This document shows, piece by piece, positions 55,098 to 64,000 of a stretch of DNA of 64,000 bases. This stretch comes from Methylolobus aquaticus. Its GTDB lineage: Bacteria; Pseudomonadota; Gammaproteobacteria; Methylococcales; Methylococcaceae. A program made the translations under genes and the position numbers. The stretch's first letter is position 1. Every line of letters starts with the position of its first letter. The notes under the pieces were generated by a model, which saw only the letters and a program-made list of their open reading frames with translations, did no database searches and had not been told where the DNA came from. The stretch is taken from contig SEYW01000001.1 in NCBI GenBank assembly GCA_004168015.1, positions 310,001 to 374,000 on the forward strand. The letters run 5' to 3'.

Positions 55098-57860
55098 TCA
55101 GGCACCATGATCATTCCCTGAGCCGGCTCGCACCTCGTAACGGAGAAAATCGGACAGCCGCCTTGACTCCTTGACCTCATCGTGGGGAACGAGCAGGTAG
55201 GTCCAAGGCTTCGTACCAACCGTCCCCGCATAGTCAGACGCGTGCTTGCACCACTGCACGGCTGCGGATGCCTTGGCCTGAACCTCGTGAGTATTGATCT
55301 CGTCGCGCGCTTTCGTCTCGACCATCAGGATCGTCGCGTCGGTTTCGGCAACAAAGTCGGGCAGGTACTCCGGCTGCTCGGGGCCGAGCTTGTAGTAGAT
55401 CTGGAACTGCCCTTTAGCGGGCTTGAACCATTTCGAGGCATCCCGTTCCAAGATGATCGCGAAGCGCCTTTCGGTGTCTGAATCAAACTTCTGCAACGGA
55501 TATAGACAACGCGCAAAGCCGCCGAAAAGCATCTGTTTGATGCGGTTCGTCTCGATCAGCGTCTCACGGAAATGGTGGGCCGCTCGACCCGCCGTGGCCG
55601 TGTAGTTACAGGGTTTGAGTCCAGTGAAGCCGCGACTGACTTGCACCTCGTACTCGGTTGCCTCCTCCCAGAAGTGAGCCATCATCTCGGCATGGATTAG
55701 CCGCGCCAGCTCGGAACCATAAGTGTCCAGGATCTCGTGTAGCTCGCTGTCCGAATAGCCCCGATTCCGGTAGTACGCGACGGCTTGTCCGGCCAGGTCA
55801 TACAACAGTTCGGACTGCGTAAAGTAGTCGATGTCGTCGAAATCGATCAACTTCCTGACGATGTAGTCTTCCAGGCGGAGTTCGCGGACTCCGGACTCGC
55901 GGCTCAGAATGAACTGATGATTGGTCCGCAACTCCTGCCCCAGGATCTCTCGTTGCCCGGGCTGGAAATTGGGCAACATACCAAGCCTAAAGGCATGAAA
56001 ACCCGTGGTGACCTCGCCGGCTGGAACTACAGCGATGCGGGGGATATCGATGGTCTGCTGCACCACGATCTCAGTAGTCTTCGCGACCACGGCCGACAAG
56101 TCGATCGCGGGCGCTGACGCATCCTCGTACCCCAGCAGGTCCCCTTGCAGCGGCTTCAGGCGCTCGGCGACTTCCGCCAGGATTTCCTTCTGCACCTCAG
56201 GTTTCAGCAGCGCGCCGCTGGTAGGCACGAGATCGCGCTTGACCTCGTAATTGCCAATGACGTCCATCACCATGCGCGCGGCCTGCTTTTCCGCCTCGGT
56301 CGTGAAGATCGGTGCCGGCGACGTGGAAAGTCCCGGGGCTTGAATGGCGGCAGATGTTCCGTCAGCCACGACCGATACATCCGTCAAACCGAGCCGCGCT
56401 GCAGCTCCCGATTCGACCTGCACGCTGACCTTCCTGTCGTCAGCGCTCGGCGCTTCAAGGATGATCTGCTTCAAGCGGATCGGCGAGTCGCCGCGGTTGG
56501 CCTCGTCGATGATGTCCTGAAACTTGTCGTGGGCAACGATGTTCAAGCGATCCACCGCCGCCACTCCGGTGCGCTTGCCGTAGGGCAGGCGCAAGCCACG
56601 GCCGATGGACTGCTCGATCAGCGTGCGCGCATTGGCGGCGCGCAGCGGCACGATCGTGTAGAGGTTGGTCACGTCCCAGCCTTCCTTCAGCATGTTGACG
56701 TGAATCACGATCTCGGTCGGCTCGTCCACGCTCTCGACCGCCAGCAGGCGGGTGATCATCTGCTCCTCTTCCGCGCCGGTGCGACTGGAATCGACCTGAA
56801 TGACCTTCCCCCGGTAACGTGCCTCATAGAAGGCTTCGGATTCGATCAGCGCCAAAAGCTGCGCGGCATGTGTCGTATCGCGGGCAATCACGAGCATGAA
56901 GGGTTTGACCGGCGCGACACCATTCTCCCGGGCATAGGTCAGCAGTTCGACCTTGGTCGTCTCGTGCAGGCGGATGCCGTCTTCCAGTTTGGTCTTCTCG
57001 ACCTCGTCGGCGGTGTGGGCTCTGGCGTCGAAGTTTCGCTGTGTGACCACGGCGGGTTCCTTGACGAACCCGTCCTCCATCGCACGCGCCAAGGGGTAGT
57101 CCATCACGACATTCCGGAACGGCACCGGCCCGCGGCCCGACTCCACGAAGGGCGTCGCCGTCAACTCCAGACCGAACAAGGGCTTTAGCTCATTGATCGC
57201 ACGCACTCCGGCACTGGCCCGGTAGCGGTGCGACTCGTCCATCAGCAGGACGAGATCGGGCAGGTTGGCCAGGTGATTGAAGTAGCTGTCGCCCAGCACC
57301 TCACGCATGCGCTTGATGCGCGGTTCCTTGCCGCCGCGCACTTCGGAGTTGATCTTGGAGATGTTGAAAATATTGATGCGCACGTCGTGGGCAAAACCCA
57401 GGGCGCGATCGTCCACCGCCGCGCCGGTCTGGTCGTAATTGTCGCCGGTGATGATCAAGGGCGATTGCTGCGCGAACTCGGCAATGCCCTTGAAGACGTA
57501 CTTCGGTATGTTGCGCGTGAAATCGGCAATGAGCTTGTTGTAGATCGTCAGGTTGGGCGCCAGCACGAAAAAATTACTGACGCCGTGCGCCAGGTGCAGG
57601 TAGGCGATGAAAGCCCCCATCAGGCGCGTCTTGCCCACGCCGGTAGCCAGCGCGAAGCACAGCGACGGGAACTCGCGCTCGAAGTCTTCCAGCGTGCTGA
57701 ACTCGGCTTTCAGTGCGGAGAGAATGTCCGCTGCGTCCCGCTGCTGCCGCAACAGTTCCGGTGCCGCATCGAGCGCGCGCACCAGCCGGGCGAGCGACTC
57801 CGCCTGCGGAGGGCGCAGCGACAAGCGCCCGGTGACGTGGTGAAGCACGCGAGCCTGCAT
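55098..57860 (-). CDS. Type III restriction-like helicase-nuclease (Res)
   Basis: A 920-residue SF2 helicase-nuclease. Walker A is ATGVGKT (72-78), the DEAD-type box is MDESH (near 208) and motif VI is IEQSIGRGLRLP. The C-terminal part has PDF...MVETKARD, a PD-(D/E)xK nuclease pattern. Its N-terminus (VTGRLSLRPPQAESLA) is the normal family opening, so the gene is intact. Its ATG overlaps the stop of the 64-residue gene (TGATG). It would cut DNA lacking the partner Mod methylation. Mod lies about 1.7 kb upstream, with four small genes or remnants in between. Confidence 0.88.
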   Translation of the reverse strand: MQARVLHHVTGRLSLRPPQAESLARLVRALDAAPELLRQQRDAADILSALKAEFSTLEDFEREFPSLCFALATGVGKTRLMGAFIAYLHLAHGVSNFFVLAPNLTIYNKLIADFTRNIPKYVFKGIAEFAQQSPLIITGDNYDQTGAAVDDRALGFAHDVRINIFNISKINSEVRGGKEPRIKRMREVLGDSYFNHLANLPDLVLLMDESHRYRASAGVRAINELKPLFGLELTATPFVESGRGPVPFRNVVMDYPLARAMEDGFVKEPAVVTQRNFDARAHTADEVEKTKLEDGIRLHETTKVELLTYARENGVAPVKPFMLVIARDTTHAAQLLALIESEAFYEARYRGKVIQVDSSRTGAEEEQMITRLLAVESVDEPTEIVIHVNMLKEGWDVTNLYTIVPLRAANARTLIEQSIGRGLRLPYGKRTGVAAVDRLNIVAHDKFQDIIDEANRGDSPIRLKQIILEAPSADDRKVSVQVESGAAARLGLTDVSVVADGTSAAIQAPGLSTSPAPIFTTEAEKQAARMVMDVIGNYEVKRDLVPTSGALLKPEVQKEILAEVAERLKPLQGDLLGYEDASAPAIDLSAVVAKTTEIVVQQTIDIPRIAVVPAGEVTTGFHAFRLGMLPNFQPGQREILGQELRTNHQFILSRESGVRELRLEDYIVRKLIDFDDIDYFTQSELLYDLAGQAVAYYRNRGYSDSELHEILDTYGSELARLIHAEMMAHFWEEATEYEVQVSRGFTGLKPCNYTATAGRAAHHFRETLIETNRIKQMLFGGFARCLYPLQKFDSDTERRFAIILERDASKWFKPAKGQFQIYYKLGPEQPEYLPDFVAETDATILMVETKARDEINTHEVQAKASAAVQWCKHASDYAGTVGTKPWTYLLVPHDEVKESRRLSDFLRYEVRAGSGNDHGA
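57785..57842 (-). repeat. Direct repeat copy 1 (inside res 5' end)
   Basis: A 58-nt stretch identical to 58801-58858, 1016 nt apart in the same orientation. It codes the start of Res (HHVTGRLSLRPPQAESLAR). Weaker similarity continues a little on both sides. Confidence 0.95.
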
Positions 57861-58054
57861 CAGCTGGCTCCGCGGTTCAATTGCTGCGCCAACTCGTCGG
57901 CAGCCACGCGAACGATTCGGCCATTGCGCATGATGACTATCGCCGTCCGCGTCTGAATCGCGATTTCGCGAGCGGATTGGGCCGCCCTCAGCAGGGCGGA
58001 AAGAGATGCGCGCAAATCTGAATTGCGCGCCTTCGAGAGCTCGTCTGGTGTCAT
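57860..58054 (-). CDS. Small protein next to the zeta-like kinase, possible antitoxin
   Basis: A 64-residue protein (MTPDELSKARNSDLRASLSAL; IVIMRNGRIVRVAADEL). The ATG at 58054 has GAGAG 5 nt upstream and overlaps the kinase stop (ATGA); it ends overlapping the res start. The helical first half and short beta stretch would suit a partner-binding protein. An antitoxin role is inferred only from pairing with the zeta-like gene. Confidence 0.6.
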   Translation of the reverse strand: MTPDELSKARNSDLRASLSALLRAAQSAREIAIQTRTAIVIMRNGRIVRVAADELAQQLNRGAS

Positions 58055-58566
58055 TGGTTCTCTCCCCATGCGATCAGCTCCGGTACTACTCCGGCATTGT
58101 CGTAAAGCGCCCAGTCATCGACCTCGCTGCGATAATGACGCTCGAAGTTGCGGCGCCCGGCATCGAAACGCCGCCGTATCACATGCTCAGGCACATCATG
58201 GCCACCTTGCCGCACCCGCTCGGCGACACGCGCAATGGCCAGTTCCACCGTCGGCAGCGAAAGAAAAAAGAGACTCACACTATAGCCGCGCGCCCGCCAC
58301 AAACGGATGTGCCGAAGGTAACCGAAACCGGACAAAGTGGTTTCAAACGCAAAGCTTTCGCGCTTCTCGAAGCGCTCACCGATCTCGTGCAACATCAGGC
58401 GTCCTGCTTTCACGGCCGCAAGCTCCGGCGCAAATGGCGACAGGCCGGCTGCAATCAGATCGGCGTTGATGAAATGAGGGCACTGCGCCTCGGCGGGCAG
58501 GAATGCCCTGGCGAAGGTTGTCTTGCCAGCACCATTGGGGCCAGCGATGACGATGACCTTCTTCAC
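58051..58566 (-). CDS. Zeta-toxin-like P-loop kinase
   Basis: A 171-residue AAA/zeta-type kinase. Walker A is AGPNGAGKTT (8-17). NADLIAAGLSP contains the likely catalytic Asp, FAFETTLSG follows, and RRRFDAGRRNF holds lid arginines. Zeta toxins phosphorylate UDP-sugars and stop cell wall synthesis; some relatives are not toxins. It begins with GTG in a GTGA overlap with the stop of a helicase-tail remnant, and it is bracketed by the two 58-nt res repeats. Confidence 0.8.
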   Translation of the reverse strand: MKKVIVIAGPNGAGKTTFARAFLPAEAQCPHFINADLIAAGLSPFAPELAAVKAGRLMLHEIGERFEKRESFAFETTLSGFGYLRHIRLWRARGYSVSLFFLSLPTVELAIARVAERVRQGGHDVPEHVIRRRFDAGRRNFERHYRSEVDDWALYDNAGVVPELIAWGENQ

Positions 58567-58709
58567 AGCTCAACCCCAAGCATCAGATCACCCGCCCAAG
58601 CATCGAGCTCTTGGACTTCCTGCTCGCAACAACCAGAATCGAGCTGGGGAAGATCCCGCAGCAGCGAGGTAATCCGTGCTTCGAGATCGAGCGATAAGCT
58701 GGGACCGGC
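58563..58709 (-). pseudogene. 3' tail remnant of a helicase-type gene
   Basis: A 48-codon open stretch after a stop (TAA at 58710-58712). It codes EQEVQELDAWAGDLMLG, closely matching EQEVQKLDAWADDMKLG in the partial gene at 63579-64000, then ends at a stop overlapping the zeta start. DNA similarity to 63845-63905 is clear by eye. It appears to be the end of a paralogous gene that was joined here together with the zeta cassette. Confidence 0.7.
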
Positions 58710-59119
58710 TTACCATCCAGCCACGAACTCTCAGGACGAGTTGGGTCACCATACCGCCCTTGGCTCAGGACCTTTCGCAAACCATTGAGACCGCGCACCC
58801 GCCGGGCGAGCGACTCCGCCTGCGGAGGGCGCAGCGACAAGCGCCCGGTGACGTGGTGCAGGACGCGTTGCTTCGTGCGGAAACATCCCGTTGGAAGGCT
58901 TCGATCTCCCCTCGCCTTGCGGTGGGCCTGGAACTGAAAATCCAGCACATCGACGGGATGGGGGCGCTTGCTCAGGTGCAAGATTTCCAGGCCCACGATT
59001 TCGCCGCTCGCGTCATAATCGACGATGATGCCCGGCGCCGCCTCTTCCGACTCGATGACATCGGTATCCACCCGTTGCAGATGCAAGGCATCGGCGGCTT
59101 CATCAACGCTCAGCCTCAT
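58583..59119 (-). CDS. DUF2283 protein fused to a copy of the res 5' end
   Basis: A 178-residue reading frame. Residues 1 to about 65 are a DUF2283 domain (DEAADALHLQRV; GIIVDYDASGEIVGLEILHLSKR). From about residue 85 it reads RVLHHVTGRLSLRPPQAESLAR in frame, identical to the start of Res, then degenerates into unrelated sequence. DUF2283 proteins are small, so the second half is probably debris of a rearrangement. The ATG overlaps the DUF559 stop (ATGA). Function of DUF2283 is unknown; these genes often sit near toxin-antitoxin or restriction genes. Confidence 0.6.
   Translation of the reverse strand: MRLSVDEAADALHLQRVDTDVIESEEAAPGIIVDYDASGEIVGLEILHLSKRPHPVDVLDFQFQAHRKARGDRSLPTGCFRTKQRVLHHVTGRLSLRPPQAESLARRVRGLNGLRKVLSQGRYGDPTRPESSWLDGKPVPAYRSISKHGLPRCCGIFPSSILVVASRKSKSSMLGRVI
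58801..58858 (-). repeat. Direct repeat copy 2 (res 5' fragment)
   Basis: The second copy of the 58-nt res sequence (other copy 57785-57842). Both are in the same frame. Recombination between them would remove the zeta pair and leave DUF2283 fused in frame to full-length Res. Confidence 0.95.
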
Positions 59120-59478
59120 AGCTTGTCCCTAAATGCTGTCCGAAATTCGGTTACCGCTTGGCGAATACGTTCCAAAACGGCTTCCGTTTGCCCCAGAATC
59201 TCGTGATTCCAGAAGCGCAAGACCGTATATCCATGCGCATGAAACCAAGCATCTCGTTCTGCATCCGCGTCGCCACCACGCTGCCCGCCGTTCGCCTCGA
59301 TAAGCAAGCGGAGTTCGATGCACACAAAATCCGCGATGTAGGGACCAATCGGCTTTTGCCGCTTGAATTTCAGACCCATGAAGCGCTGGGCGCGCAAGTG
59401 ATACCAAAGCCGCTGTTCCTCCTCGGTTTGGTTGGATCGGAGATATTTGGCATACCGAAGTTGGAGATTACCCTCTCC
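59116..59478 (-). pseudogene. DUF559 (Vsr-like) endonuclease gene with lost start
   Basis: The frame is open from 59478 and codes a nearly complete DUF559 protein: LRYAKYLRSNQTEEEQRLW, KFKRQKPIGPYIADFVC, LLIEANGGQ, ERDAWFHAHGYTVLRFWN. These small proteins resemble very-short-patch repair endonucleases. No ATG or GTG precedes the family N-terminus; just upstream is a stop and a REP-type palindrome (59480-59505). An ATG overlapping the mod stop (59531) would be the natural coupled start but is out of frame. A TTG at 59397 could give a 93-residue shortened product. Probably inactivated or truncated. Confidence 0.65.
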
Positions 59479-59479
59479 T

Positions 59480-59505
59480 CACTCCCTCTCCCGCAAGAGG
59501 GAGTG
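59480..59505. repeat. REP-type palindrome 1
   Basis: A 10-bp stem (CACTCCCTCT / AGAGGGAGTG) with a 6-nt loop, of the CCCTCTCCC/GGGAGAGGG kind. It lies at the broken 5' end of the DUF559 gene. Confidence 0.7.
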
Positions 59506-59527
59506 GGGCGCATATGCCACTTCGCGC

Positions 59528-61327
59528 TCATCGATCCTCCTCGAACAGATCCATCGTCGCGTTGGCCCTAGCGCGGGGCCTCTGACCCCCCTCTCCCGTG
59601 GGCGGGAGAGGGGCGGGGGGAGAGGGTGGCTCGGGCGTTGCCATCGGCAGATTGGCGACGTTCAGGCTGTAGTCGTCATGGCCCCACTCGCAACGGGCCA
59701 GTACCATTTTCGGGATCTTCTTCAGCGTCAGGTTCGGCCAGCGCTCCGCCGCCCGGTCGGCGCCGACGCCCCGAAAAGCCGAGCAGCAGACCAGCAGGCT
59801 CCGGGCGGAACCGACCTCGTCGGACAGCGCCTGCAGTTGCTCGGCCGAAAGATTCTGCGTGGTCACGTAGATGAAGTCGCGCTCGCTGGAGTGACCCTGC
59901 TGCCAGAAGCAAGACTCCGACGGCGCGTAGGTGAAACCTTCCAGCTTGCACAGCGCCTCGGCCAGCATCGCCGCGTTGTATTCGGGGTTGATGACCGGGT
60001 TACCCCAGCGGTCGTCGATGATCAGCGTGGGCGCCAGCCGGTAGTAGCGAAAACCGCCGCCGCCTTTCCAGTTCATCGCTGCTGTGACACCTGCCGAGTC
60101 GGCGCCATCAATCACTCGCTTCATTCGTGGAATGATCTGGGAGTGGCAGTGATCACCCAACTCGACCATGATCCAGCGACGCCCCATTTTCTGTGCAACA
60201 GCGCCGGTGGTCCCGGAGCCAGCAAATGAATCAAGTACGATGTCGCCTGCTGTCGTGGAAAGCTCAAGGCACCTCTTAATTAACGCTTCGGGCTTCTTTC
60301 CATTCGGAAAGGAGACTCCCCCTTCGTTATGTAAGTTGTTCGATAGCAAGTCGTCCCAAAGATTCGTTAGCGGTGACGCGGTCGTTGGCTTACCGTCAAT
60401 CACGCGCGTCTTGGCCCTGTAAAAAATTAGCTGCTCACCCCCGAAGAAGTAGTAGTCATCCCTGTCTTCCCGCACAGACCGATAAACCATTGCGCGATCA
60501 GCAATGGATTGAGTAAGGGCATCCCTCGCTGCTTCATTGACATCTCTTGGTGCAACACGTGCGGTGCGAACAACCCGGTGAGCATTGGTCACAACAAAGT
60601 CGGCCAACTTGGCTTCGAGCTTATCAGCGAATTTCGCCTTCGCGTCGTCCCACGATTGCAGTCTGTTGTTACGCAGGAATGCCTCGCGAAGCCCGATAAG
60701 GTTCCACTCCTGAAATTCGTCCTCGTAGTTTTCTATGTACTTGGAGTACCTATCATCGCGAGGCCCTGGCACAAAGACGCGGTTTGGTAGCCATACATCT
60801 TTATTTTTCGCGTAATAGAGGATGTAGTTATTAGTCGTTACAAGGCCAGGATTTATGGCCTTCGGCCCTGAGGCGGAACTCTGTTTGAAAGTTATTACCC
60901 CAATGCGGTTACGTCGACCAAACACTTCGTCAAGCAATACTATTAGGTAACCAAGTTCATTATCGTCGATATGAACAAACAGCGTTCCGTCATCGGACAG
61001 CAATCGCCGAAGTGATTCGGCACGATCTCGAATAAGTCCAAGCCAGATGGAGTGCTCGTACCCATCGTCGTAGTGCTCAAATGCCTGCTGCGTATTGAAA
61101 GGCGGATCGATATAGACGCACTTAACCTTGCCGCTGAACTCCTGCTCCAGGGCCTTCAACGCCAGCAGGTTGTCACCGAAGATCAGCCGGTTGTCGAAGA
61201 TGTCATCGTCCGTCACACGATGCTTGGCATGATAGGACCTCGCGGGATCTTCCAGCAGAATCCGCGGCTCCAGTTTGGGGCGTTTTTCTTTTCCAATCCA
61301 GGTAAGCTCCAGCTTTTGCTTCGTCAT
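59528..61327 (-). CDS. Type III-like adenine methyltransferase (Mod)
   Basis: A 599-residue DNA methyltransferase of the beta class: motif IV DPPF (74-77) comes before motif I (DSFAGSGTTGAVA, near 390), predicting N6-adenine methylation. Type III Mod also recognises the target site. The start at 61327 has GGGAGGGATC upstream. The last about 35 residues include PPSPPAPLPPTGEGG, coded by a REP-type palindrome (59588-59613). The product would pair with Res at 55098. The stop overlaps an ATG for the next gene. Confidence 0.9.
   Translation of the reverse strand: MTKQKLELTWIGKEKRPKLEPRILLEDPARSYHAKHRVTDDDIFDNRLIFGDNLLALKALEQEFSGKVKCVYIDPPFNTQQAFEHYDDGYEHSIWLGLIRDRAESLRRLLSDDGTLFVHIDDNELGYLIVLLDEVFGRRNRIGVITFKQSSASGPKAINPGLVTTNNYILYYAKNKDVWLPNRVFVPGPRDDRYSKYIENYEDEFQEWNLIGLREAFLRNNRLQSWDDAKAKFADKLEAKLADFVVTNAHRVVRTARVAPRDVNEAARDALTQSIADRAMVYRSVREDRDDYYFFGGEQLIFYRAKTRVIDGKPTTASPLTNLWDDLLSNNLHNEGGVSFPNGKKPEALIKRCLELSTTAGDIVLDSFAGSGTTGAVAQKMGRRWIMVELGDHCHSQIIPRMKRVIDGADSAGVTAAMNWKGGGGFRYYRLAPTLIIDDRWGNPVINPEYNAAMLAEALCKLEGFTYAPSESCFWQQGHSSERDFIYVTTQNLSAEQLQALSDEVGSARSLLVCCSAFRGVGADRAAERWPNLTLKKIPKMVLARCEWGHDDYSLNVANLPMATPEPPSPPAPLPPTGEGGQRPRARANATMDLFEEDR
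59588..59613. repeat. REP-type palindrome 2, inside the mod 3' end
   Basis: A 10-bp stem (CCCCTCTCCC / GGGAGAGGGG) with a 6-nt loop. Same stem and loop size as the copy at 59480-59505, about 80 nt away. It stays in frame with mod and adds a Pro-rich peptide. Confidence 0.7.
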
Positions 61328-61356
61328 GACCGATCCCTCCCTGGAGCGACGCCCAG

Positions 61357-61376
61357 CCGCACCATCCAAGGTGCGG
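61357..61376 (-). promoter_or_regulatory. Hairpin just upstream of the mod ribosome site
   Basis: CCGCACC and GGTGCGG form a perfect 7-bp stem with a 6-nt loop, about 15 nt from the GGGAGG ribosome site of mod. It may affect translation or be an operator. Confidence 0.3.
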
Positions 61377-61386
61377 CGTTCGCGCC

Positions 61387-61411
61387 TGAAAAAGCCATGT
61401 TAAATGGCTTT
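61387..61411. terminator. Bidirectional-type terminator between HNH and mod
   Basis: AAAAAGCCAT and ATGGCTTTTT form a 10-bp stem with a 5-nt loop; each strand ends in a T-run. It would end transcription of the ATPase/HNH unit before mod, so mod probably has its own promoter in the short space after it, although none is obvious. Confidence 0.6.
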
Positions 61412-61499
61412 TTCTCGCCGGTCGGCGACCGGCACTCACCCTTCCCGATCCAGGTGATTTCGAGTCTTTGCGTGCGAGTCATGGTTCAGTCTGGTCCCT

Positions 61500-62227
61500 T
61501 CATTGTACCGACGCAGTCCAGGCGTCCCACGCATCCGGCGCCCTGCGGCGCAACTCCGCAAAGGGTTCGAGGCGGGCGCCCACGGGACCCAGACACCAGC
61601 CCAAAAGACCGTGGTCATCGGCCCGTTGCAGGTCTTGCGCAAGCTTCTGCAGTTCGATGGCGTCTTCCGTCAGGGCCTTGCGCACGCAGGCCTCCATCCG
61701 CAAATACGTTCGCCGATAACCCGCCGCCATCCCTTCGCGGCGGTCCAACTTCAGGGTCTTCACTGTGTGTTCACCCTTGGGCGATGGCGCCCCACAGTTC
61801 GCCAGATAACGGGCGGTGAGGTTGCCCGTGTCCGGGTCGAAATCCAGGTGTTCCCACGGATCCTCGGCACTCGGATCTACCAGCATCGGCTGACCGGCGT
61901 TCGATAGCGGAAACCGGTTGCCCTTGAATCGTCCGCACTCCGTGCAGCACAGCAGCATGTTCGACCACACAAATGCGCGATCCGGATAGGTTGCCTTCGG
62001 CCAGAAATGATCGATGTCGCTGCCGTGGGAGTCCACACAGTACATACAGCGCTGGCGAGAGGCCCCATCATCGACCGCAAAGTTTCGACGACGGTGGCCA
62101 GCGTCCGCGTCTGACGCGCGGCCTTCCATGCGCGTTCGACGCTTGGCGTGCCGGCGGTCGCCGCTGCCCTCCTGTATAGGTACGCCTGCACGCGCCCGGG
62201 TAGCGCCGGACGATGGACTTTGCGCAT
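61500..62227 (-). pseudogene. Septu-type HNH nuclease (PtuB-like) with a frameshift
   Basis: An HNH nuclease gene split between two frames. Codons 1-55 from ATG 62227 read MRKVHRPALPGRVQAYLYRR...TLRSMMG; the rest, in the other frame, reads ASRQRCMYCVDSHGSDIDHFWPKATYP...LLCCTECGRFKGNRFP, with the HNH core and zinc cysteines. One extra base in the GGGG run at 62063-62066 would restore a 242-residue protein. The ATG lies 3 nt after the ATPase stop. It is a true mutation, a sequencing error, or a rare frameshift. Confidence 0.75.
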
Positions 62228-62230
62228 GAA

Positions 62231-63529
62231 TCAGAGCTCCTCGTCCGTCCGAGCAAACAAGTCTAACTGCTGCATCTCCCTCTGATCATCCTGGCTCAGT
62301 TTCACGCCGGAGCGTTCCTTGGCTTTCAACCTCGCGTATTGCGCACGCGCTTCGACGGCCTTCGGCGAGCGGGTATTCTGCAGCCCGAAAGCCGATGTAA
62401 GCAGGATAGTGTCGGGACGGGAGGCAATGACCTTTTTGTACTCGTCGTCACTCAGTGGGTGCGGCCTGTCGTCGCTGCCCGGCTCGGGTAATACAAATAA
62501 TCCATTGGGATCGGCCGCCTGACAGATGATCGGGCTGTGCGTAGTCACGAGGAACTGGATGTTCGGGAAGTGGCGCTTGAGCCAGAAGCCGATTTCGCGC
62601 TGCCATTCCGGATGCAGGTGCGCATCGATCTCGTCGATGAGAACGACGCCGCTGCGCTTGAAGAACAGCCTGCCTTCATCGTCGCGAGCCGTGAGGTGTG
62701 CGAGTCCATACAGGTTGATCAGATGACGGAGTATGTCGGCCAGCAAGGCAAGCGCCGCTCGGTAGCCGTCGCTCATTTCGCTCCAGGACAACTCGAGCCC
62801 ATTGCGGTCCTTGAGCCATAGCCCATCTGAATCGATGCGATCGACGGTGATCTGATTAGGCATGAGTTCATCGCGCAGCACCTCAAGAATGAGCGCCAGT
62901 TGCTCCTTTGCCTCCGATTTGTCCTCCAGGGCCTTGTGACTCAAGGTGCGGAGCCACTGGTCCACTTCGGCGAGCGATGCGGCTTCCTGGAACATCGTGA
63001 CGAATCGTTCGGTTGTGGGCGCCACCATCTGACGCGTGGCCTCTGGCGAGGCCCCGAAGACACGGCGAAAGGGTCCATAACCGCAGGAAAACCAGCCCTT
63101 AGCATCCTGTGACCAAATGCTTCGTTGTGGCGTTGCGTAGTTCTTTCGGGTGATTCCCGTCGGTAAAGCCGCCTCAATCTGTGGCTCTTTCTGGCCGTTT
63201 CTCAATGCGATACGGGCAAGAAACATCTTCTCAGTTACTCGTCCGCCCTCTGAAAAGCTATCGTCGTCGGCGATCGGCGCTATGCCAAGCTCAACCGCGG
63301 CCTCATGTCGTCCCGCCCGAATCCAGCGATGAAAAGTGGGCTGCAAGGCGCGCGCTGTATCCCTGCCGGTCAACGCAATAGCAATCGCTTTGAGCAGGGT
63401 GCTCTTTCCAGAGCCGTTGTCGCCGGTAAATACCGTCCACCCTGCGTAATCGCCATTCGGACGCTTGAGATCGAATTCAAGATCCGCGAATCCCCGAACA
63501 TCCTTTAGTGTGATTTTGCTTATGTACAT
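62231..63529 (-). CDS. AAA/ABC-type ATPase, Septu-like (PtuA-like)
   Basis: A 432-residue ATPase of the SMC/OLD-like AAA_21 type. It opens with MYISKITLKDVRGFADLEFDL, has Walker A TGDNGSGKSTL (near 35-45), a signature-like LSWSEMSDGYRAAL, Walker B VVLIDEIDAHLHPEW and the H-loop VTTHSPIIC. The pairing with an HNH nuclease gene 3 nt downstream matches the Septu (PtuA-PtuB) and retron-linked PtuAB layout; no reverse transcriptase is seen. The frame runs on to 63733, but Met at 63529 is the family start. Confidence 0.8.
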   Translation of the reverse strand: MYISKITLKDVRGFADLEFDLKRPNGDYAGWTVFTGDNGSGKSTLLKAIAIALTGRDTARALQPTFHRWIRAGRHEAAVELGIAPIADDDSFSEGGRVTEKMFLARIALRNGQKEPQIEAALPTGITRKNYATPQRSIWSQDAKGWFSCGYGPFRRVFGASPEATRQMVAPTTERFVTMFQEAASLAEVDQWLRTLSHKALEDKSEAKEQLALILEVLRDELMPNQITVDRIDSDGLWLKDRNGLELSWSEMSDGYRAALALLADILRHLINLYGLAHLTARDDEGRLFFKRSGVVLIDEIDAHLHPEWQREIGFWLKRHFPNIQFLVTTHSPIICQAADPNGLFVLPEPGSDDRPHPLSDDEYKKVIASRPDTILLTSAFGLQNTRSPKAVEARAQYARLKAKERSGVKLSQDDQREMQQLDLFARTDEEL

Positions 63530-63578
63530 AGCTGAGATTCCGGGATTTCGCATCGACTGAGAGGGAAGCTTCCCGCCG

Positions 63579-64000
63579 TCATGCGAGCTCCCATGCAATG
63601 GTGAACAGCATTCGCTCCTCCACCTGCTGCTGGAGTTGCGCTTCCAACTGACTGATGAGTTCGTTGCGCTGCGCCTCGACTTCATCCTGCCGGGCGAATA
63701 GCTCGCGGCGCAGTTTGCCGCGCCTGGTCTCAAGTTCGCGCTGTCGCTTCTGCCAAGACAGCTTCTCTTCCAGGGTCGGCGCGATGGCCGCGGTACGGCG
63801 CACCTCCTTGATCTCGCGGTCGATCGCCTTGATTTCCTGTTCCAGCCCCAACTTCATATCATCCGCCCACGCATCGAGCTTCTGCACTTCCTGCTCGAAG
63901 TAGCCCAGGTTACGTTGATTGATCTCGCGCAGGAGCGCCGTCTTTCTGGACTCCATATCGTTTGCCAGTATCTCGGGCACGCTGTTGTCGTCCTCTGCCC
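63579..64000 (-). CDS. C-terminal part of a large helicase-type protein (5' end beyond window)
   Basis: The frame is open to the window edge; about 140 residues are visible. The sequence is a charged coiled coil (FEQEVQKLDAWADDMKLGLEQ; DREIKEVRRTA) ending in ERMLFTIAWELA. This resembles the C-terminal end of SNF2/DEAD-type helicases in defence islands (DISARM- or HsdR-related proteins), but the motor domains are outside the window. A GTG at 63980 is only an internal codon. The ATPase gene follows after 49 nt. Confidence 0.6.
   Translation of the reverse strand, partial: AEDDNSVPEILANDMESRKTALLREINQRNLGYFEQEVQKLDAWADDMKLGLEQEIKAIDREIKEVRRTAAIAPTLEEKLSWQKRQRELETRRGKLRRELFARQDEVEAQRNELISQLEAQLQQQVEERMLFTIAWELA

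Follow-up and report, generated by a model that had tools for sequence, protein, structure and literature searches.

A probable frameshift separating the N-terminal part of PtuB from its HNH core in a Septu-like gene pair

The stretch of DNA analysed (the window, 64,000 nt) corresponds to C19:310001-374000 of a draft genome of 3.39 Mb in 42 contigs, estimated as 89.5% complete. At its right end the minus strand carries, in order, genes for an SNF2 helicase, PtuA, a split PtuB, a type III methyltransferase (mod), a DUF559 protein (59397-59116), a DUF2283 ORF (59119-58583), a zeta-toxin-like kinase (58566-58051) and a type III res protein (57860-55098). The helicase is a DrmD-like neighbour outside the PtuA/PtuB pair; its C-terminal end occupies 63579..64000 and runs past the window edge (PADLOC PDLC02619, E 5.7e-201), the whole protein having 997 aa in a frame that is open throughout 63579-66572, in coordinates extended past the window. 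The ptuA gene (62231..63529) encodes an intact ATPase of 432 aa that matches PADLOC PtuA PDLC00269 over residues 1-429 (E 1.4e-167). On the other side of ptuB (62227-61500), which occupies two overlapping frames, mod (59528..61327) is also intact (PADLOC PDLC03636, E 1.6e-193, profile positions 2-558 of 575). A scan of 61300-63700 found no promoters or terminators.

The initial annotation described ptuB as the HNH gene of a Septu-like pair, broken so that two overlapping minus-strand frames together encode one protein, and both homology and codon-position G+C bear this out. Frame A is an ORF of 116 aa from ATG 62227 (61877..62227), whose first 54 residues (62066..62227) are the 5' piece of ptuB and match PtuB N-termini, the remaining 62 being outside the PtuB frame. 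Frame B is an ORF of 209 aa from ATG 62129 (61500..62129); the PtuB-like part begins after its first 24 residues, and the HNH core and C-terminus (61500..62057, with RQRCMYC, DIDHFWPK and CCTEC) match PADLOC PtuB PDLC00317 with E 2.8e-36 and NCBIfam PtuB NF041761 with E 9.4e-12 and 45 bits, which does not reach the cut-off of 150. CMYC, DIDHFWPK and CCTEC all lie downstream of the break, in frame B, as had been proposed. PtuB is not encoded in one open frame here, being split between 62058 and 62066; from the distance between a conserved Trp and the first Cys of CMYC, the frameshift interval was placed at 62058..62065, flanked by the last conserved residue of frame A and the first of frame B, and it reads GGG followed by CCTCT. 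The GGG is the remainder of a GGGG run that stands at 62063-62066, where the annotation had put it.

Taken whole, the 116-aa frame A ORF has no match at E <= 0.1 in Pfam, PADLOC or NCBIfam. Its first 55 residues nevertheless match the PtuB N-terminus in 12 of 18 loci (E 9e-10 to 7e-4), each time just upstream of the same PtuB core, and the signal of a split PtuB is thus beyond chance; among the other six loci, L006 and L008 gave only chance-level matches elsewhere, and L004, L009, L018 and L024 gave none. The third codon position has the highest G+C both in frame A before the break (0.77) and in frame B after it (0.74), a shift of phase in codon-position G+C where the gene is broken.

Profile matches to both proteins uphold the assignment of the pair as PtuA/PtuB of the anti-phage system Septu. 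The window PtuA matches PDLC00269 nearly end to end, and the HNH gene adjoining it is of the PtuB family (frame B, PDLC00317); as in Septu, the ATPase gene comes first and the HNH gene follows, the ptuA stop codon standing 3 nt from the ptuB start, but the window differs from Septu in that its ptuB is split by a frameshift. In a published Septu (PMC13096335), H75 and N91 are spaced 16 residues apart, as are H41 and N57 of frame B, and the two sets may correspond, judging from this spacing and not from an alignment. Against the NCBIfam PtuA model, built for retron Ec78, the window PtuA scores E 6.5e-39 and 134 bits, under the cut-off of 500. Matches of the window proteins to solved structures are distant (best E 2.4e-22 for PtuA and 5.5e-5 for PtuB chains), the best solved relatives of the pair by sequence being retron PtuA/PtuB chains (9kjx, 9vh1). 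The PtuAB of retron-Eco7 (Ec78) belongs to the same two protein families, but the window pair is flanked by an SNF2 helicase and a type III methyltransferase. Reverse transcriptase PF00078 has no match in the 89.5% complete assembly, with a positive control in 3 of 14 genomes, and no Rfam family matches at gathering score in the 78-kb region formed by the window and the next 14 kb (L052). A retron of type I-A (Eco7 type) was therefore ruled out, having neither the reverse transcriptase nor an msr/msd RNA match, and these two results identify the pair as a stand-alone Septu and not a retron.

Structural context was taken from an AlphaFold2 model of the intact PtuB of locus L002, built with 7 sequences (mean pLDDT 77.1). 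In this model the N-terminal piece is predicted to form three helices (11-29, 35-42 and 46-60), the junction falling where the third one ends, and the HNH blocks at 61-110 are poorly modelled (pLDDT 47-59). When the model was searched by fold against the PDB, the top four matches were chains in retron PtuAB complexes, the particular chains being unspecified, with E-values of 0.094, 0.29, 0.53 and 4.4 and none at or below 0.001.

Comparison with intact homologs was made over 17 close homologous loci (L002-L009, L011-L017, L023 and L024), of which L011 and L012 are near-identical, so that the 17 are not 17 independent cases. L018 was searched with the N piece and stands outside this set, since its PtuA is 34% identical and just 50 PtuB residues matched. 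None of the 17 ptuB genes is split at the window's break site: the N-terminal part and the core share one frame in 17 of 17, and a stop is reached in 16, L015 running off its contig. The C-terminus of ptuB is altered in L006, and ptuB of L024 is short. One of the nearer relatives is the ptuA-ptuB pair of Rubrivivax benzoatilyticus (L002), with a PtuA 62.5% identical and a PtuB core 60% identical to those of the window; its ptuB is uninterrupted (246 aa) and reads MGPRQRCMYC across the junction, whereas that of the window is split. L006, from an Omnitrophota genome, also has its ptuA in two frames, and the low coverage given in its record name (1.2) suggests that this is a sequencing error. Most of the weaker PtuB-like matches fall outside the examined set; two of them, G352 and G350, have stops inside the match. 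Relatives of the pair were absent from the viral contigs searched, and in a class-wide sample of 369 genomes the only close PtuA at E <= 1e-90 was that of the window itself. On plasmids, PtuA has matches in 95 records and PtuB in 9, with identity of at most 42% among the matches listed.

The initial annotation attributed the break to a single base missing from the GGGG run. A frameshift beside the run is well supported, but the loss of one base is less so than a net gain of two. Counted from the conserved Trp codon up to the first CMYC cysteine, the window has 80 nt; in the homologs this distance is 78 nt in 13, 81 nt in three (L002, L023 and L024, the last with Tyr in place of the Trp) and 75 nt in one (L009). 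The alignment is free of gaps at the junction for all 17, since the 81-nt homologs have their additional residue upstream of it, and together with the 80 against 78 nt this probably means a junction two bases too long and not one base short. Most simply, then, the lesion would be a net gain of 2 nt at CCTCT (62062-62058), directly after the run. The one-base reading gives a total of 81 nt, equal to the distance in the three longer homologs, and adds one residue to the junction compared with the aligned 17 relatives.

The break looks recent, because all 28 of the PtuB columns invariant in 14 full-length homologs are kept in the window; this count leaves out L006 (altered end), L015 (contig end) and L024 (short). 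For PtuA, 70 of 72 invariant columns are kept. Regression of PtuB identity on PtuA identity over 91 homolog pairs gives the window PtuB a mean residual of -0.042 over the 14 loci, the second lowest of 15, the other loci ranging from -0.049 to +0.044. Relative to the loci with the closest PtuA (L013, L011 and L012), the window PtuB is less identical by 0.10-0.12 than PtuA predicts, or about 2 sd, and this shortfall makes some faster divergence of the window PtuB, or an older break, possible.

Together these findings favour, with a probability of about 0.72, an ordinary and recent loss-of-function frameshift in ptuB that leaves PtuA intact without its nuclease partner and the pair non-working. 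A two-gene Septu cassette, ptuA-ptuB, lies between the SNF2 helicase and type III methyltransferase genes, and a recent frameshift, most simply of +2 bases at CCTCT beside GGGG, would have separated the PtuB N-terminal part from the HNH core. Translation from the normal ptuB start should yield 54 correct residues followed by 62 wrong ones, with the HNH core absent. The pair should then fail as a defence, since PtuA is left without a nuclease partner; presumably no other route of expression rescues PtuB, and defence at this locus would be lost. The earlier suggestion that loss of the nuclease disarms the ATPase partner is the likely outcome by analogy with Septu and retron-Eco7, for which a requirement for both proteins has been published. 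For an E. coli Septu, substitutions in the Walker motifs of PtuA or in the H-N-H motif of PtuB are reported to abolish immunity (PMC13096335), and for retron-Eco7 neither PtuA nor PtuB alone is reported to cause growth arrest (PMC11555353). By the same analogy the lone PtuA of the window should be harmless and inactive. The PADLOC web server paper (PMC9252829) remarks that pseudogene annotations are common among putative defence genes. For annotation, PtuA alone is insufficient ground to count this genome as carrying a working Septu.

The frameshift was read from a draft consensus sequence, a second copy from the same species having turned up in none of the searches; it is probably real rather than an assembly error, and the mutation would then be present in the living population. 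The opposite case, in which native ptuB is intact and the frameshift is an assembly or sequencing artefact of the consensus, is unlikely but carries real weight. The genome is a draft of 42 contigs, the 28 of 28 invariant residues kept with no further lesion seen are what an error in a healthy gene with an untouched core would leave, and the two-frame ptuA of L006, another draft, resembles such an error. Against this, all 22 assessable window genes are free of frameshifts, though the set was drawn from long open frames, and homopolymers in ptuAB are no longer than 5 bases. A net change of +2 is not the usual homopolymer error. The 22 genes come from a scan of 30 long window ORFs, 23 with an NCBIfam model at E <= 1e-30 and 7 without, a hybrid kinase among the 23 being set aside; choice of ORFs by length could hide broken genes. 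These 22 ORFs (10,288 aa) each match a model over roughly 90% or more of its length in a single frame, and with the nearly full PADLOC profile coverage of ptuA, mod and res they give an assembly that does not appear rich in frameshifts.

Much less probable is that the two frames are joined at G GGG, by slippage or by programmed -1 frameshifting, to provide some full-length PtuB. Judging from the bases, a GGG codon in the P site could pair again once it had slipped by -1 on G GGG, and the product would differ from the relatives by one extra residue. The run, however, has only four G, no X XXY YYZ slippery heptamer was seen on inspection by eye, and the split frame occurs in none of the 17 relatives; the RNA fold of the 101-nt region is no better than that of shuffled sequences (z -0.06, with 89 of 200 shuffles folding as well or better). 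A conserved programmed frameshift was ruled out on the absence of the split frame from the relatives and the ordinary fold, and with the short run these observations speak against the on/off switch by slippage that had been raised as an alternative. Frame B translated by itself from ATG 62129, giving a short but functional HNH protein that lacks the native N-terminus, is also hardly to be expected: it is open for 209 aa with the core residues intact, but the N-terminal part it would lack is conserved (M1, R2, R6, W39 and L56 are invariant in 7 of 7 aligned homologs) and predicted as three helices ahead of the core, and no Shine-Dalgarno-like stretch was seen by eye before that ATG.

A second possible case of a damaged ptuB beside an intact ptuA comes from G036, a genome of the same family as the window host. 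Its ptuA is open (L015), and its ptuB extends across two contig ends, L066 and L057 (G036:C343 and C597), which have an exact 141-nt overlap and appear to belong together. In the continuation an in-frame TAA stands at a conserved acidic position that is Glu or Asp in the relatives (KEEPW in the nearest), and this ptuB thus also seems to be broken. Among eight close copies from the family and order (the window, G017, G008, G059, G033, G036, G012 and G020, with PtuA 56-71% identical), ptuB is apparently broken in two, the window and G036, and ptuA in none. That PtuB is lost repeatedly by small mutations in the host's bacterial family while PtuA is kept is doubtful as a general rule; if true, it would suggest that the nuclease is costly, that PtuA has a role by itself or that short repeats slip reversibly. 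The G036 copy raises the modest question of whether Septu loses its nuclease half more often than its ATPase half.

The wider surroundings, 55098-63529, form a mosaic defence island in which mod and res are separated by the DUF559, DUF2283 and zeta-kinase-like genes, with ptuAB located between mod and the SNF2 helicase. A conserved larger operon including the window SNF2, mod and res genes was ruled out, the homologous loci mostly having ptuA and ptuB alone: when 13 window proteins were tried by tblastn (E 1e-5), 15 of 16 homologous loci had ptuA and ptuB only, and L055 had besides these two weak mod pieces of 26-38% identity, in flanks of 0 to about 9 kb, some ended by contig ends, so that the comparison covers near neighbours only. 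Between ptuB and mod, at 61340-61483, a short reading frame, MTRTQRLEITWIGKG, is similar to the mod N-terminus, and a palindromic stretch comes after it; by DNA search this 171-bp region occurs once in the genome, and it may be what is left of another mod allele. Part of the res 5' end, 85 nt long (57767-57851), is repeated at 58783-58867 with 93% identity, inside the DUF2283 ORF (58583-59119), and the second copy looks like a res remnant. A direct repeat of 57 nt with 81% identity lies at 58570-58626 and 63841-63897, one copy being in the C-terminal end of the SNF2 gene.
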